Shown here piece by piece: positions 15,515-22,695 of a stretch of 22,987 nt of DNA. This DNA comes from a virus: positions 1 through 22,987 of IMG/VR virus record IMGVR_UViG_3300025322_000167. One strand, given 5' to 3'. Position 1 is the first letter of the stretch; each line of letters starts with the position of its first letter. The notes beneath the pieces were generated by a model. It was not told where the DNA came from, ran no database searches, and saw only the letters and a list, made by a program, of their open reading frames with translations. The translations under genes were made by a program, and so were the position numbers.

Positions 15515-16759
15515 ATGGCTTACGAATTAACAGAAACCGAAAAACGCATGGGAGCTATTCCCGAGCAGATGACTGAAGGGGCACAGATGTTGTCTGACTC
15601 GGAGCGAAGAGTTCGTGCAATCGCTGCTGATCGTCCGGCATACACACCACAGTTTGGCTCGCAGGGAGCGGTTTCGCAAGCGCCGGAACGTCAAATAGAG
15701 CAAGCTGATGTACAACAACAAGCTATCACTGGCGCGTTCAAACCAAATCAGAGAATTAGCGCAAATGTTGAGAAGCAATATGGTCCGCAAGGAGAACTGC
15801 TTGGTTATGTGGGACGTGGAACCGGCAGACCGTCGCCGGCGCAGCAGGAACGGGACAAAGAAATGGCTGGGCGTGGAATGACCAAAGACATCTACGGTAA
15901 CTGGGCAGCCCCCAAGCGGTTTGAGGATATGACGCTGATGGAGGCAGCAACAGCTATTCGCGATCAACGACGGGCACAATATGAAAAATCAAAGGCGCTG
16001 GAAGCAGCACAGAATGCACCGTATCGTGAGGCACAGATTGAAGCTTTGAAGGGACAAACTGCGCTTGCGAAAACGCAACGAGGAATTGCTGAGCTTGGTG
16101 CGTACGAACCGCGAGCGAAAATCGCCTTGATGAAGCAGTTGGAACGCACAGATATTTCAGCAGAGGATCGTACGAAGTTCGAGACTGCGTTGAAAGAAAT
16201 CAATGAGCGGGCAATGCGCCAAAAAATCGCGATCGAAATTGCAAAACAAAACGCCGCGCTAGGGGAAGAAGTAGAATTTACAGAAGGGGGACTCGTCCGA
16301 GGCTACGCCGGCGGAGGAGCTGTGAGTCGTGACTTGGCGCAGCCAGCCCCGCAGGTAAACCCGCTGATCGCACAGTACGGACAGTATTTGACGGCAGCAG
16401 CATCCGCCGGTGTGCCGCCTGTTCCGTTCGCACAGTATCAGAACCTGCTCCAGACAACACGCACCTCGATGCAAGGACAGCCTCCTGTAGGGTTCGCAGA
16501 TGGTGGCGATGTATCTGCATTAGGGCGAACACTTGAGGGTCCCGGCACGAGCACCTCTGACTCGATCCCGGCGGTGATCGACGGCAAGCAGCCAGCAGCC
16601 CTGTCCAAGGACGAGTTCGTATTCCCCGCCGAGGTGACGAAGTATTACGGCACCAAGTTTATGAACGACCTGATCGCCAAGGCGAAGGCTGCGCTGTCCG
16701 GCGAGGGACTTGAAACACCTGCGCCGCAGAAGACTAAATTTGCTGATGGGGGTGTTTGA
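15515..16759 (+). CDS. Helical/Gly-rich phage structural protein (414 aa)
   Basis: ATG 15515 follows TAAGGAGAATTGAA, the stop of the previous gene being within this string. The N-terminal 245 residues are charged and helical (e.g. IRDQRRAQYEKSKALEAAQN, QLERTDISAEDRTKFETAL). The C-terminal 170 residues carry Gly-rich turns (GGLVRGYAGGGAV; GFADGGDVSALG). They also carry a motif seen in many phage structural proteins, GTSTSDSIPAVIDGKQPAAL followed by SKDEFVFPAEVTKYYGTKFM and NDLIAKAKAAL, ending in TKFADGGV. This C-terminal motif also turns up in tape-measure and internal virion proteins. The stop overlaps the next ATG (TGATG), coupling it to the giant protein. Likely an internal virion protein. 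Confidence 0.75.
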   Translation: MAYELTETEKRMGAIPEQMTEGAQMLSDSERRVRAIAADRPAYTPQFGSQGAVSQAPERQIEQADVQQQAITGAFKPNQRISANVEKQYGPQGELLGYVGRGTGRPSPAQQERDKEMAGRGMTKDIYGNWAAPKRFEDMTLMEAATAIRDQRRAQYEKSKALEAAQNAPYREAQIEALKGQTALAKTQRGIAELGAYEPRAKIALMKQLERTDISAEDRTKFETALKEINERAMRQKIAIEIAKQNAALGEEVEFTEGGLVRGYAGGGAVSRDLAQPAPQVNPLIAQYGQYLTAAASAGVPPVPFAQYQNLLQTTRTSMQGQPPVGFADGGDVSALGRTLEGPGTSTSDSIPAVIDGKQPAALSKDEFVFPAEVTKYYGTKFMNDLIAKAKAALSGEGLETPAPQKTKFADGGV

Positions 16760-19700
16760 TGGCTGAGTATGATTTTGACGAAGAATCGTATCTGGCGTCG
16801 GTGCTGCGCAAGCCACTTCCTGCGCCTGTGCAAGCTATACCTGTAAAAACACCATCCGGCGCTTTTCGTAGACACATTATTGACCCGACGCTAAGCGCTG
16901 TGGCTGGAGCAACGGAACTTCCGTCGCTCGGGGTGGCTCTTGCGGACATTCCAACTGGCGGCTACGCTGGTAAGACTGTCGGGTATCCAATAAAAGCAGT
17001 ATCGGACTGGGCAACAAAAGGCGTAGAAAGCTGGATGTCCCCCGAGGCGCAGGAAGGCCAAGCGGCTATTGCGCGCAGAGCGGAAGAAGGCCGTGCCGCC
17101 GCAGAATCGGTGGGCGCAGGTAAAGGCGGGCAGTTTTTGTCTGAGTTTGGTGGGGCGTTAGTAGGCGCGTCAGAAAACCCGCAGGCAGGTATAAATACCG
17201 CCATCAGGTCTTTTGGGGGGATGAAAGCTATTGCAAAAGTCACCGCACTTAAACTAGCGCCTATTGCGGCCAAATTAGAAGCTCAGGTAGCTGCGAAAAC
17301 ATTATCGAAATCTGCTGCTGACGCACAGCTTCGCAATTTGGCAACAAAATACTCCGCCGCTGGAGAAGGTCTGCTGGGCGCTGGTGCTATCTCTAAAGGT
17401 ATAGGGGAAGGGGATGATGTAGGGTACTGGGATCGGTTCGCGGCTGTCCCTGCCGGTATGCTTACAGCCGGCATAACAAGAGGTGTGGGCAGGATACCAG
17501 GGCTTGGAGACGTTGAAGCACAGATGGCGTTGCGCAGTATCGGCAAAGAAAGTGCGGGGAGTCTTACAGGGGGATTTATCAAACGAGGCGCAAAGGCTGC
17601 GTTGTCAGAAGGGCTTCAGGAAGGTACGCAAGAATTTCAGGAAACCGCATGGGAAAACGTCGGCGCGGGACGCGATTGGCTAAACAAAGCCGGATATTCG
17701 ACGGCGATGGGAGTTGTGTCGGGCACAGGAATGGGAGCGACTCTGGGCGCAATCGCTGGAAAAAAGAAAGACCTCACAGAACAGCCTCCACCTCCTCCAG
17801 GAGAACTCTTTACCTCCCCACCGGCAGGGGCACGCACAATGATTGACGAGAGATTGTACACGAGCCTTCGCCGCAATGGTGCAGACCACGAAAGCGCCCT
17901 TCTGGCAGCGCGCAGGGACGAGATCGGGATTGCCATGAGGCAGGCATTGGAAGAAACCCTGCCAGCTCCGGCAACATACCGCAAGGATTACGAGAAGCAG
18001 TTGACCGCCGCAGGCGCGAATATCGAAGATGCGACCAGGGCGGCTTTTAGCACGTCTGATGCGAAGCAGAACTACCTGTACTTGCGCAAGCTCGGAATGC
18101 CCCGAGCGGCAGCCATCAAACAAGCACTGACTTTACCGCTGGTCGGTTCTGAAGCGCAAGGGATGTTGTTCGACAAGAAGGGGTCACGTATCGCATACCC
18201 CACCGAGGGATTTGAAGAGAGTGCGAGATTGCGTGATGAGGCTTTGCGTAGATATGACGAAGCACAAGCTCGCAATCTTCGCCGTGCTGAGGCAACTCCT
18301 GGAACAATTCAAAATATATTCGCACCTAAAGACTTTACGCAGCCGCGCCCGCCTGCCGTAGTGCAAATTCCGGCGGCGTTGGCTGATGTGACCTTGAGCC
18401 AGGCGGGGTTCAGGACCAAGACGTCGAGAAAAGAACTCGCTGCTGCGTATGCAGCGGGAGACTTTGATAGATCAGCTACTATGCTTCAAGATCATTTATC
18501 TGCAGGAGTGCCTAAAAAGGCCGCGAAGAACATAGAGAAGCTACAACGGATAGTTGAAGCAGCGCGTGCCAGAAAAGAAACGTCTCAAGAAGCTGAAATA
18601 AGTGATTTTGCTGGAAGGGAACATCGCAAGCAAGGGAAGCTGCTGACCGCAGCGGGCAGGTCAAAGACCCTTGCTGAACTCGGCAGTCAAAAAGGAACTC
18701 AAAATGCCTTATCAATCGGAAGCACAGCGCAAGAAATTCCACCTGTTGGAGAAGCGGGGCAAGTTGTCGCCGAAGGTGGTACAGGAGTGGGACCAGTCGT
18801 CGAAGGGACTGAAGTTGCCCCAGAAGTCAAAGGGACTGAAGTTGCCCCAGAAGTCAAAGGGGAAGGAAAAGTAATTCCGTCGTATACGGAGCTGCTGGCA
18901 GAAATGCAAAAAGAAGAATCTGTGAAACCGGCCAAGCCTGCAAAGAGCGGTCGTGCTTTGGCGGAAACATATCTGGATTTGCAGACCGCGTTTAACGAAA
19001 CCGGCGACAGCACCGAGCTTGATGTGTTTGAATACGAACACCAGGAAGACCTGGCGGCTATCGTAAAAGCAGCGGCGCGCATTGAAGAGCCGCACGCAAC
19101 GGCTGAAGAAGCCTCTACAGAAGACGTCGTAGACGAAGAGACTGCCGACTCTGGCAGAGATTATGAAGGCGACCCAGAGGATTTGCTTTTTTCAAAAACC
19201 GCCGGCGCAAAAACTCCTTCAGATGCCGGAACAATTCGCTCGAATCTGAAGAAGCTGTTCTTCTCGCCGAAGAAATTCGATACCATAGTCACGATATACG
19301 CGACACAGGCGGAGGCGCGCACAGACAATAAAGACCTGGACGCCTCCATGAAGATCGATGGCGGTGGGTTTGTGGCTGGATTCAAAACCGCCGATGGCAA
19401 GATCGGCCTGATAGCGGAGAACATCGAGCAAGGCAAAGAACTTGGCGTGTTCCTGCATGAAGTTGGCGTACACCTCGGGATGAAGAACCTGATTGGTGCA
19501 GCCAACATGGCGTGGCTCAAGAACAAGGTCGGTGAGTGGGCTGCTAGAAACAACGGATCGAAAGAAAGCCTCGCTGCGAAGCGCGCCATCAAACGAGCCA
19601 TGGACTCCACATCGGCAAATAAAGATGAAGAATACATCGCCTACATGGTTGAGGAGCTGGTCAAGGAAGGAGTTGTGCCGAAAGCCGTTGACGGAAAAGC

Positions 19701-22695
19701 GGAAGGCTGGCTGTACAGACTTGTTGGAGCTATGCGCGTGGCATTGCTGAAACTCAACCTGAAATGGCTCGGATACTCAGGGCAGAATTTGGTTGATCTT
19801 GCCTTCGGTGCTGCCGGTATCGAGCTAGGGGCAGTTGAGCGTCCGTCTGAAGCCGTATCACAGCCGACGAGACAAGGAGAACTGGCATTTTCTGAAATAG
19901 GAGCTGAAGCAGCAATAAACACGACTATCAACACGATGCGCGCGCGGATGAAGTCAACGTCATGGACAGCCAAACTTGCGGCGATAATTCCGTTCACCCA
20001 CGATCTCGTGAACGCAGCCAAGAAATACATGCCTAGTGCGACAGCACTGTGGGACGCTACCAACGATATGATGGCGGAGACGAAGAAATGGTCTGACACC
20101 ATTCATTCCGCCGCGCAAACGATGTCAATGCTGCCGGAGAACTCGCAGGATAAAGTGCAGACGTTTCTGCACGACGGAAAGATGGCTGGCGCGTGGGGGT
20201 TCAAATTCGACTGGATTACAGACCGTGGAGTACACACGTCTGTTGCGATGGAAAACAAGTGGAAGGCGCTTACTCCGCAAGAGCAGAAGTCTGTCGAGCA
20301 GGTTTTGAAGTTCTTTTACGACGCGCGAATCGAGCACGTCAATGCTGTCGAAGAGAACGTCAAGTCGATGCGCAAGTATACCAAGACACTGATGGATGAA
20401 GTTACAAAAGAAGCGCTGCTCAAGGACATCAACGATGAGATGGCCAGGATGAGCTTGTGGAAAAACTACACCGGGCCGTATGTGCCGACCGTGCGGTTTG
20501 GGCGGTGGGCGGTGGAAGCTAAGTCGAAGGAGTTCATCGAGGCCGAGTCCAATGGCGGGGATTACGCGTCGATGAAGTCGGATGCGTCGAAGTATCGGTA
20601 TGTGCAGTACGAATCCGAGCACGCAGCTATGTCGGCAAAAGCAGAGTTACTCAAGACGTTCAAATCTGGCAGTGTTGAAGTGGATATAAAACTGGATTCT
20701 CCACAAGGTCGCAGAGAAGACTTTGCCGCATTGCTGCGTCTCGAAACAATGATAAGGAAGCGCGAGGGCGACGTCATTTCTACAGAAGCCGTCAAGGAAA
20801 TGCTGGAAGTGTTGCGCGTGATGACTCGAGAGCTGTCCGACGAATACTCGGAAGTGCAGTCCCGCCAGCAGTTCAAAGCGGTGGCTGGTGCAAAGTATGA
20901 AGAGGTGATGCGCGGAGCGATTTTGAGAGGGGAACAGCTTGCATTCACCATTGGCAGGTTGAAACACAGTCGTCGCGTGTCGGGCGCACTGTACGATATG
21001 CGTGGTGAGGTGGAGACGTCTGGCGACAAGACAAAAGCAGGTATTTTGTGGAACGAATTCAACGCGCGCTACAAAGGCGGGATGGCGGAGAAATCCCAGG
21101 ATGAGGTCATAAAGACCATCATGGGCGGAGCTGCGTTTTACAAGCTACTGACTCAGCCGATGTATTTCTTGACGCAATTGATGCAGACACCTCAGTACAC
21201 GATTCCCAGCATGTTGAAGTATGGGTTTGATTATGGTGCATCGTGGAAGGCGTGGATGAATAATCTGCACGTCATCAACGAGGTATGGACGCAGGGCAAG
21301 ATCGTCAAGGGCATCGTCCGCGATCTTGATTTGCTGACACACCCGCCCGGCAAGAAAGTGACGGCTGCCGAATTGACGCTCGCTGACGAAAAGAGAGAGC
21401 TGCTCGTGTGGCTGCGCAACAGAAACCTTCTCGATATGGGAATGGAGTCCGACACAGGGGCGTTTGATGGTACGCATCCAGCGAAACGAGCTGCGCAGCG
21501 ATTACTGCTGACGCCGCTCAAGAACGCCGTGCAGAACGTGGAGATTATCAACCGCGTAAGCTCTGCTCTTGCCGTGTACGATATGTCGAAGATACAAGGT
21601 AAGTCTCTCGCCGAGATCAAATCTCTGTCAGAAAATATCATCAGGGATTCCCACGGCATATACGCTGGATTCGCATCCCCGAGGTACTTGAACACCAAAG
21701 GTATCATGCGCATACCGATGCAGTTTCGACGGTTTCAGTTAATACAGGCTGGGTTCCTGTACAAAAATATCTGGCTTGAAGCCCAGAAGCTGAAAAATCC
21801 GGGAGAGCGCGCGGCGGCACTCAGGACGATAGCGGCAACGCTCGGACACACTCTGGCTGTCGCGGGATTGAAAGGCTCTGTATTATGGGTGGTTGTTCAC
21901 GGGCTGATGGCATTAGCCGGAGCGGGTGATGATGATCCGAGAGATGCCGAAACCCTTGCGATGGCTGTTCTCTCGGATAACTTTTCGCCGGAGTTCGCCG
22001 ATCTGCTTATGAAAGGACTGCCTACACTTGTCGGGGTGAACATATCCGCGCGCGCATCTCAGAACCCGTTCTCTATTCTGCCATTTGAAGGGCAGTACGC
22101 GCTCCAGGCATTCGAGTCCAGAGAAAAGCTGATGAAGAGTGCATACACGCTGTTTGGCGGTGCCTCTGGAGGCGTTCTAGGAGACATGGTGGATGGGTAT
22201 GATCTAATGTCGAAGGGGAAGTATTACAAAGGCATGGAGATGATGCTTCCATCAGGTCTAAGAAATATGATGCGCGCCGGAAGATTCTCTTCTGAGGGAG
22301 TGACCAATAGAAACGGCGTTGTCATGTTGACTCCTGAAGAGATGAGTATGTGGGATTTGATCCAGCAAGGATCAGGGTCGGCTCCAGAGAAAGTGCAGAA
22401 GGCGTACTGGACGCAAGAGAAGCTTCGTAATGTGCAGACGAAGTTCTCTGAGCAGGCGCAGAGGGCAGATGACGACTTCGTGGAAGCCTACGAAGCCCGC
22501 GACAAGGAAGGGATGCGCGCAGCGCGAGATGATTTAATAAAGATTCAGAAAGCGATGCGCGGCGTCAAGCTAAAGCCGTACCCGCTGTCCAGACTCATAG
22601 GAGCCGTTACAAGCAAGCGCAAACAGGGGCGGCAGATAGTGAGGGGTGTCAAGACAACCGCGTCAACGCGCAGATTTGTGGAGGCTCTTCCATAA
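16759..22695 (+). CDS. Giant polyvalent / internal virion protein with HExxxH motif and LPD38-like C-terminus
   Basis: Start ATG 16759 overlaps the previous TGA; TTG 16756 is rejected. The 1978-residue protein has several regions. Residues 1-335 are Gly/Ala-rich with weakly hydrophobic helices, ending in EGLQEGTQEFQETAWENVGA, a segment typical of phage polyvalent proteins. A proline linker (PPPPP at about 342-347) follows, then charged helices to about 650. Residues 670-705 are a low-complexity linker that overlaps another gene. Residues 860-1010 look like a metallopeptidase: FLHEVGVHLGMKNLIG gives HExxxH at 900-905, and EEYIAYMVEE (about 957-966) may give a third ligand. A large helical region follows. 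From about 1626 comes a block I associate with LPD38 (IMRIPMQFRRFQLIQAGFLY, then a hydrophobic helix LKGSVLWVVVHGLMALAGA). Probably injected with DNA; the role is inferred. Confidence 0.82.
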   Translation: MAEYDFDEESYLASVLRKPLPAPVQAIPVKTPSGAFRRHIIDPTLSAVAGATELPSLGVALADIPTGGYAGKTVGYPIKAVSDWATKGVESWMSPEAQEGQAAIARRAEEGRAAAESVGAGKGGQFLSEFGGALVGASENPQAGINTAIRSFGGMKAIAKVTALKLAPIAAKLEAQVAAKTLSKSAADAQLRNLATKYSAAGEGLLGAGAISKGIGEGDDVGYWDRFAAVPAGMLTAGITRGVGRIPGLGDVEAQMALRSIGKESAGSLTGGFIKRGAKAALSEGLQEGTQEFQETAWENVGAGRDWLNKAGYSTAMGVVSGTGMGATLGAIAGKKKDLTEQPPPPPGELFTSPPAGARTMIDERLYTSLRRNGADHESALLAARRDEIGIAMRQALEETLPAPATYRKDYEKQLTAAGANIEDATRAAFSTSDAKQNYLYLRKLGMPRAAAIKQALTLPLVGSEAQGMLFDKKGSRIAYPTEGFEESARLRDEALRRYDEAQARNLRRAEATPGTIQNIFAPKDFTQPRPPAVVQIPAALADVTLSQAGFRTKTSRKELAAAYAAGDFDRSATMLQDHLSAGVPKKAAKNIEKLQRIVEAARARKETSQEAEISDFAGREHRKQGKLLTAAGRSKTLAELGSQKGTQNALSIGSTAQEIPPVGEAGQVVAEGGTGVGPVVEGTEVAPEVKGTEVAPEVKGEGKVIPSYTELLAEMQKEESVKPAKPAKSGRALAETYLDLQTAFNETGDSTELDVFEYEHQEDLAAIVKAAARIEEPHATAEEASTEDVVDEETADSGRDYEGDPEDLLFSKTAGAKTPSDAGTIRSNLKKLFFSPKKFDTIVTIYATQAEARTDNKDLDASMKIDGGGFVAGFKTADGKIGLIAENIEQGKELGVFLHEVGVHLGMKNLIGAANMAWLKNKVGEWAARNNGSKESLAAKRAIKRAMDSTSANKDEEYIAYMVEELVKEGVVPKAVDGKAEGWLYRLVGAMRVALLKLNLKWLGYSGQNLVDLAFGAAGIELGAVERPSEAVSQPTRQGELAFSEIGAEAAINTTINTMRARMKSTSWTAKLAAIIPFTHDLVNAAKKYMPSATALWDATNDMMAETKKWSDTIHSAAQTMSMLPENSQDKVQTFLHDGKMAGAWGFKFDWITDRGVHTSVAMENKWKALTPQEQKSVEQVLKFFYDARIEHVNAVEENVKSMRKYTKTLMDEVTKEALLKDINDEMARMSLWKNYTGPYVPTVRFGRWAVEAKSKEFIEAESNGGDYASMKSDASKYRYVQYESEHAAMSAKAELLKTFKSGSVEVDIKLDSPQGRREDFAALLRLETMIRKREGDVISTEAVKEMLEVLRVMTRELSDEYSEVQSRQQFKAVAGAKYEEVMRGAILRGEQLAFTIGRLKHSRRVSGALYDMRGEVETSGDKTKAGILWNEFNARYKGGMAEKSQDEVIKTIMGGAAFYKLLTQPMYFLTQLMQTPQYTIPSMLKYGFDYGASWKAWMNNLHVINEVWTQGKIVKGIVRDLDLLTHPPGKKVTAAELTLADEKRELLVWLRNRNLLDMGMESDTGAFDGTHPAKRAAQRLLLTPLKNAVQNVEIINRVSSALAVYDMSKIQGKSLAEIKSLSENIIRDSHGIYAGFASPRYLNTKGIMRIPMQFRRFQLIQAGFLYKNIWLEAQKLKNPGERAAALRTIAATLGHTLAVAGLKGSVLWVVVHGLMALAGAGDDDPRDAETLAMAVLSDNFSPEFADLLMKGLPTLVGVNISARASQNPFSILPFEGQYALQAFESREKLMKSAYTLFGGASGGVLGDMVDGYDLMSKGKYYKGMEMMLPSGLRNMMRAGRFSSEGVTNRNGVVMLTPEEMSMWDLIQQGSGSAPEKVQKAYWTQEKLRNVQTKFSEQAQRADDDFVEAYEARDKEGMRAARDDLIKIQKAMRGVKLKPYPLSRLIGAVTSKRKQGRQIVRGVKTTASTRRFVEALP
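18691..18697 (+). promoter_or_regulatory. Ribosome binding site for the nested gene
   Basis: AAAGGAA ends 7 bases before ATG 18704, ideal spacing for translation of the nested frame. It lies inside the giant gene, where no start signal would otherwise be expected. Confidence 0.5.
18704..18874 (+). CDS. Nested small gene in another frame (56 aa)
   Basis: This 56-residue frame (shifted relative to the giant gene) begins MPYQSEAQRKKFHLLEKRGK and continues LSPKVVQEWDQSSKG, followed by two LKLPQKSKG copies and a KEK end. This is the layout of a common small phage protein: a start of the type MPxxSxAQRxxFxxLxxxG, then an EWDxxSKGxxLP segment and a basic tail. I recognise the pattern but not a named function. 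A good ribosome site (18691-18697) precedes it. In the giant protein's own frame the same DNA encodes a low-complexity Gly/Val/Glu linker, which suggests that the small protein is the older, selected reading. The longer frame from 18671 lacks a ribosome site and is not chosen. Confidence 0.62.
   Translation: MPYQSEAQRKKFHLLEKRGKLSPKVVQEWDQSSKGLKLPQKSKGLKLPQKSKGKEK
18805..18858 (+). repeat. Perfect 27-bp tandem duplication
   Basis: Two adjacent identical copies (18805-18831 and 18832-18858), beginning GGGACTGAAGTTGCC. The unit length is a multiple of three, so it adds a nine-residue repeat in both frames: GTEVAPEVK in the giant protein and KGLKLPQKS (in register) in the nested protein. Confidence 0.95.

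Follow-up and report, generated by a model that had tools for sequence, protein, structure and literature searches.

A widespread small phage gene nested out of frame in giant genes, and its probable engulfment at a joint between giant modules

The window (the whole 22,987-base stretch analyzed) is a virus record with a tailed-phage virion module, in which genes for a portal/head-tail adaptor, the major head protein, a structural protein, and head closure are followed, at the end, by a giant gene (positions 16756 to 22695, plus strand) of 1979 aa that starts with TTG at 16756 or ATG at 16759. The C-terminal part of the giant is of the DarB-like/PLxRFG type; its match to phrog_10089 (DarB-like antirestriction; E = 3e-29) covers residues 1398 to 1955 only (20947 to 22620, plus strand), and a Pfam methylase or helicase match, as expected of the DarB methylase-helicase dyad, was not obtained in the 1979 aa. 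The sequence and an alignment with relative L043 revealed HEVGVH (19456 to 19473, plus strand), a putative metallopeptidase-like HExxH motif, in a conserved segment of the giant 3' of the nested gene described below. In these features, its very large size, and its place in a virion module, the giant resembles the polyvalent/DarB-like giants (Iyer et al. 2017, PMC5512222). It differs in the out-of-frame gene inside it, an arrangement not described in that paper, where "overlapping" is absent and "nested" is used of a protein fold only.

This nested open reading frame (ORF) (18704 to 18874, plus strand; ATG at 18704, TAA at 18872 to 18874) encodes 56 aa, MPYQSEAQRKKFHLLEKRGKLSPKVVQEWDQSSKGLKLPQKSKGLKLPQKSKGKEK, and lies wholly within the giant ORF (16756/16759 to 22695) on the same strand in another frame, beginning one base past the giant-frame codons and overlapping the giant from residue 650. 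A Shine-Dalgarno-like AAGGA (18692 to 18696, plus strand) precedes its ATG by 7 nucleotides, bearing out the initial annotation of a 56-codon frame with its own ribosome site, out of frame in the giant. Read in the giant frame, the overlap (18703 to 18873, plus strand; residues 650 to 706) is a Gly/Val/Glu-rich, disordered linker at the 99th percentile of disorder propensity within this giant. The C-terminal part of the nested ORF holds 2.3 copies of a 27-bp tandem repeat (18799 to 18861, plus strand) that lengthens both proteins in frame, adding KGLKLPQKS in one and KGTEVAPEV in the other; it duplicates the conserved KGLKLP motif of the small frame and extends the giant linker in step, and is missing from the aligned L043. 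The 56 aa include no cysteine for a lipobox, and thus lack the lipoprotein signal of an Rz1-like spanin. At such loci, standard annotation would probably keep only the big gene.

Searching with the 56-aa protein yielded one relative, and successive alignments yielded 26, 41, and 238 relatives (80 kept) in viral contigs, so that homologues, which the initial annotation could only anticipate, were found. A profile of 40 other members, with the window left out, matched the ORF at E = 6e-23 (next best, E = 1.7) among 632 six-frame segments; as judged from sequence, the nested ORF is a member of a real phage small-protein family. The consensus is MPYxSxAQRxxF...VxEWDxxSKGxxLP, in which S5, Q8, V26, W29, G35, L38, and P39 are invariant or near-invariant in an alignment of 41 sequences and are all present in the window ORF. 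Fetched loci with a family member number 166 and hold about 115 distinct sequences; about 90 of these are not nested, in agreement with the earlier proposal of a real small phage gene that also exists outside the giant. The small protein gave no significant match to a named family in Pfam, NCBIfam, or PHROGs (scattered weak ones only), a tblastn comparison of family members with annotated phages produced no convincing match (which is not proof of absence, as masking may hide short basic queries), and the literature, as far as it was covered (incompletely), holds no report of the family or of such engulfment. In bacterial assemblies, an earlier scan of genome contigs gave no match, and the last scan gave 12 metagenome-assembled-genome (MAG) loci (L163 to L174, including Aminicenantes, Bacteroidia, Thiothrix, and Burkholderiales), the family copies of which are probably phage sequence binned with hosts. 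One subfamily (MPAKSxAQLRWVNSPSG...VKEWDxASKGLKLPE) is free-standing in L048, L054, L056, L060, L063, L064, and L066; the L064 copy has a terminase large subunit gene upstream of it. On a contig shared by L004, L011, and L100 (L004:8001-10811), the small domain forms, in frame, the N terminus of a 936-aa protein; in-frame fusion thus also happens.

Strict nesting was found in 33 of the 166 loci, representing 18 distinct sequences; L058 and six further distinct copies, located close to the 5' end of a large gene, bring the nested distinct sequences to 25. All are from metagenome-derived virus contigs, with one family copy per nested record; L017 was rejected as a nested copy, since a downstream gene with a Met of its own accounts for the ORF around it. 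The host ORFs range from about 1,090 to >4,000 aa, and many have no blastp similarity to each other, though some groups share domains. All 25 nested distinct sequences share one frame relative to the host gene. Frame openness was rejected as the cause, because in most lineages the other frame is at least as often open (of 91 free-standing copies, 10 are open in the used frame and 21 in the other). A better explanation is peptide character: the used frame of nested copies is Gly/Glu/Gln/Pro-rich, without Cys or Trp, and the overlaps lie at the 87th to 100th percentile of disorder propensity within each giant, whereas the other frame would read Arg/Cys/Trp-rich. Bacterial same-strand overlaps likewise arise by start or stop codon change and show a phase bias (to phase 1) of compositional origin, tied to the frequency of start codons (Sabath et al. 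2008, PMC2542354); the present bias differs in that the other frame is open as often as the used one or more. Parsimony on the larger tree gave 13 changes of nested state, although only 2 of these are required by well-supported branches (3 on the smaller tree); a single origin is unlikely on this count, and nesting likely arose several times. A 46-column tree cannot fix the direction of change.

Split relatives, fused relatives, and swaps of the giant N-terminal part at the small gene were established by sequence comparison. In L113, L114, L119, L087, and L076, the giant region is split into genes A (925 to 1719 aa) and B (1089 to 1172 aa) with a gene of about 170 aa between them, and the small gene lies 44 to 50 codons into the gene B ORF, whereas in L152 to L156 the same region is fused into one giant with the small gene at the junction; residues 1780 to 2751 of L152 align with L113 gene B from its residue 35, just 5' of the small gene. 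The intervening gene (about 168 aa and conserved; L113:9368-9874, L076:7242-7751, L088:9325-9825) matched nothing in the fused relatives' loci. The initial annotation had pictured two genes fused through a small gene lying free between them. The fusion part found support in this sister lineage, where the split halves have the small gene at their junction; the free position did not, since in the split state the small gene is already nested, about 43 to 58 codons into the ORF of downstream gene B. For the window's own giant, neither blastp nor hhalign relates the N-terminal parts of the window and L043 (630 and 792 aa) to each other, and the homologous part starts at or just before the small gene, which favors fusion, but no split relative of this giant was found among the relatives compared. 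The DNA of L045 and L046 behaves similarly, being homologous up to 8.6 kb, unrelated across the giant N-terminal part, and homologous again from 22 nucleotides before the nested ATG.

These comparisons also bear on the alternative that illegitimate recombination placed the small gene, whole, in a linker that the giant already had, with no gene fusion. In L014, the related giant is intact and the small gene follows about 1 kb downstream, outside the giant, which keeps insertion in consideration; the related giants L078 and L080 have no nested copy, and within the giants tested the nested copies sit where disorder propensity is highest. The arrangements in L014 and in L078 and L080 may reflect insertion or loss. 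Insertion would, however, leave both sides homologous to an uninterrupted giant, and so the unrelated N-terminal parts, with homology restarting at the 5' edge of the small gene in both the window/L043 and L045/L046 comparisons, speak against it, as do the split genes that meet at the small gene in five relatives. We regard insertion as rather unlikely.

The nested ORF could instead be a decaying relic, a gene before the fusion whose translation has since been lost, and the window is known from one record only. The signature of selection in relatives makes this very improbable. Between L021 and L022, pN was 0.017 and pS was 0.31 in the small frame, and giant-frame pS was 0.029 in the overlap versus 0.53 around it; in three related giants, small-frame pN/pS was near 0.05 while nested and giant-frame pS was cut about twentyfold. 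L077 repeated the L021/L022 pattern twice, and L045/L046, L152/L156, and the L113/L076 group agreed with it. The single-copy state and the start codon are also kept, as is the ribosome site in most lineages. The window itself has one distant partner, L043, and the divergence between the two (flank pS, 0.76) precludes dependable estimates of synonymous rates; they share 64% identity in the small protein and, in the giant, 32% across the overlap and 44% in the flanks. The small frame, judged by these substitution patterns, is under purifying selection while nested and is the conserved one, and we agree with the initial annotation that the giant residues there are an out-of-frame reading of an older gene.

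The giant frame left its own mark on codon usage. Third-position T in the small frame would give T-initial giant codons, and in nested copies it occurred at 0 of 120 stop-making sites (30.5 expected) and at 10 of 187 harmless sites (46.4 expected). Six further nested lineages gave 0 of 90 and 8 of 90, respectively, and the window alone gave 0 of 11 and 2 of 19. Free-standing copies, in contrast, showed no depletion at harmless sites (600 versus 596 expected) and mild depletion at stop-making sites (332 versus 434 expected). Depletion at harmless sites in nested but not in free-standing copies indicates that the giant frame is also selected, and speaks for genuine translation of the giant across the overlap. 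Both frames are thus, on the evidence of the relatives, under selection and used, and the earlier view of the linker as featureless gave way to one of codons selected to stay open, polar, and disordered.

Initiation at the nested starts was assessed by duplex energy. The mean ribosome-site energy of 12 nested starts was −6.0 kcal/mol, versus −2.8 kcal/mol at other internal ATGs (0 of 20,000 resamplings as low; P < 5e-5). Sites were strong in 7 of the 12 copies tested, and the nested starts of L009, L036, L043, L045, L046, L053, and L070 ranked in the best 0 to 2.5% of their own giants. The window site (−5.6 kcal/mol, a value reached by 17% of the internal ATGs of this giant) was moderate, that of L012 ordinary (32%), and no Shine-Dalgarno sequence was seen at the nested starts of L021, L022, L077, and L058. 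Programmed frameshifting into the small frame, which would produce a truncated giant with a conserved C-terminal tail, would fit the constant relative frame of the nested sequences. Like the relic, it is very improbable, since upstream of its ATG the small frame stays open for only about 19 codons in the window (9 in L021), the start codon is conserved and in most lineages follows a ribosome site, and free-standing members start at the same place. A chance ORF, as might be expected where short internal ORFs are common in the window and the segment bears a tandem repeat, is ruled out by the family match obtained with the window left out and by the selection signatures in several lineages.

We therefore consider it likely that the nested ORF functions as a phage gene, with its own internal ribosome site for translation, and that it was engulfed by extension of the 5' end of the downstream gene followed by fusion of an upstream gene. 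The small gene would be the older element, which elsewhere stands alone, several times in the head or packaging region, and in several lineages a large gene would have grown across it. The 5' end of the downstream gene would first have extended upstream over the small gene in the one frame that gives a polar, disordered peptide, and an unrelated upstream gene would then have been fused on, leaving the small gene to mark the joint between giant modules. The same DNA would from then on encode a conserved small protein and a flexible giant linker, with selection on both. That extension preceded fusion is inferred from one sister lineage.

AlphaFold2 modeled the 56-aa protein with a mean pLDDT of 77, as helices at residues 6 to 18 and 23 to 33 followed by a basic tail. 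Fold searches gave no solved-structure match and insignificant viral ones only, a poor yield that is expected for a two-helix model. Free-standing copies adjoin genes for the terminase large subunit (L010 and L020) or portal/adaptor (L019 and L025), and most other neighbor genes tested gave no informative match. From this neighborhood, an accessory role in head assembly or DNA packaging would be the most likely function, an assignment we make tentatively.

The nearest precedent is the embedded two-component spanins Rz/Rz1 of phage lambda, in which a small gene also lies inside a larger one in the +1 frame and is translated from within it (Kongari et al. 2018, PMC6139136). Spanin gene pairs occur in embedded, overlapped, and separated arrangements and are often missed by annotation, and the survey found no family mixing embedded members with other architectures and no frame bias (PMC6139136). 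Spanin partners, however, act together and the spanin host gene is small, whereas here free-standing and nested members belong to one family, the hosts exceed 1,000 aa, many of them are unrelated, and the frame is constant. Overprinting, which usually puts a new frame inside an old one, as with phiX174 E within D (review PMC8227390), is alike in the internal same-strand overlap and the disorder of one product; it differs in that here the nested gene is older and widespread and the host's reading is new.

A second, unrelated ORF (MNQLQKKLKQRVEKNPRLLQRVNKLSEKQKEG...) is nested in the giants of L022 (10850-11008), L077 (7187-7342), and L021 (10847-11038), again in the same relative frame, with small-frame pS of 0.31 and pN of 0.018 and giant-frame pS of 0.028 between L022 and L077; no further copies were found in the loci examined. 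Its matching signature fits a broader reading, to which we give slightly less than even weight, that giant phage genes in general act as hosts to pre-existing small genes, captured by repeated engulfment in linker-compatible frames and kept as dual-coding linkers and module joints.

The usual view of overlapping viral genes, a new gene within an old one, would here be reversed, the nested gene being old and the host linker new. Since one family occurs in free, 5'-nested, and fully engulfed states, the steps of engulfment should be traceable and testable. The findings suggest that conserved genes within giant ORFs are missing from phage gene catalogues; for such genes, the collapse of synonymous change together with third-position T depletion may offer a simple screen.
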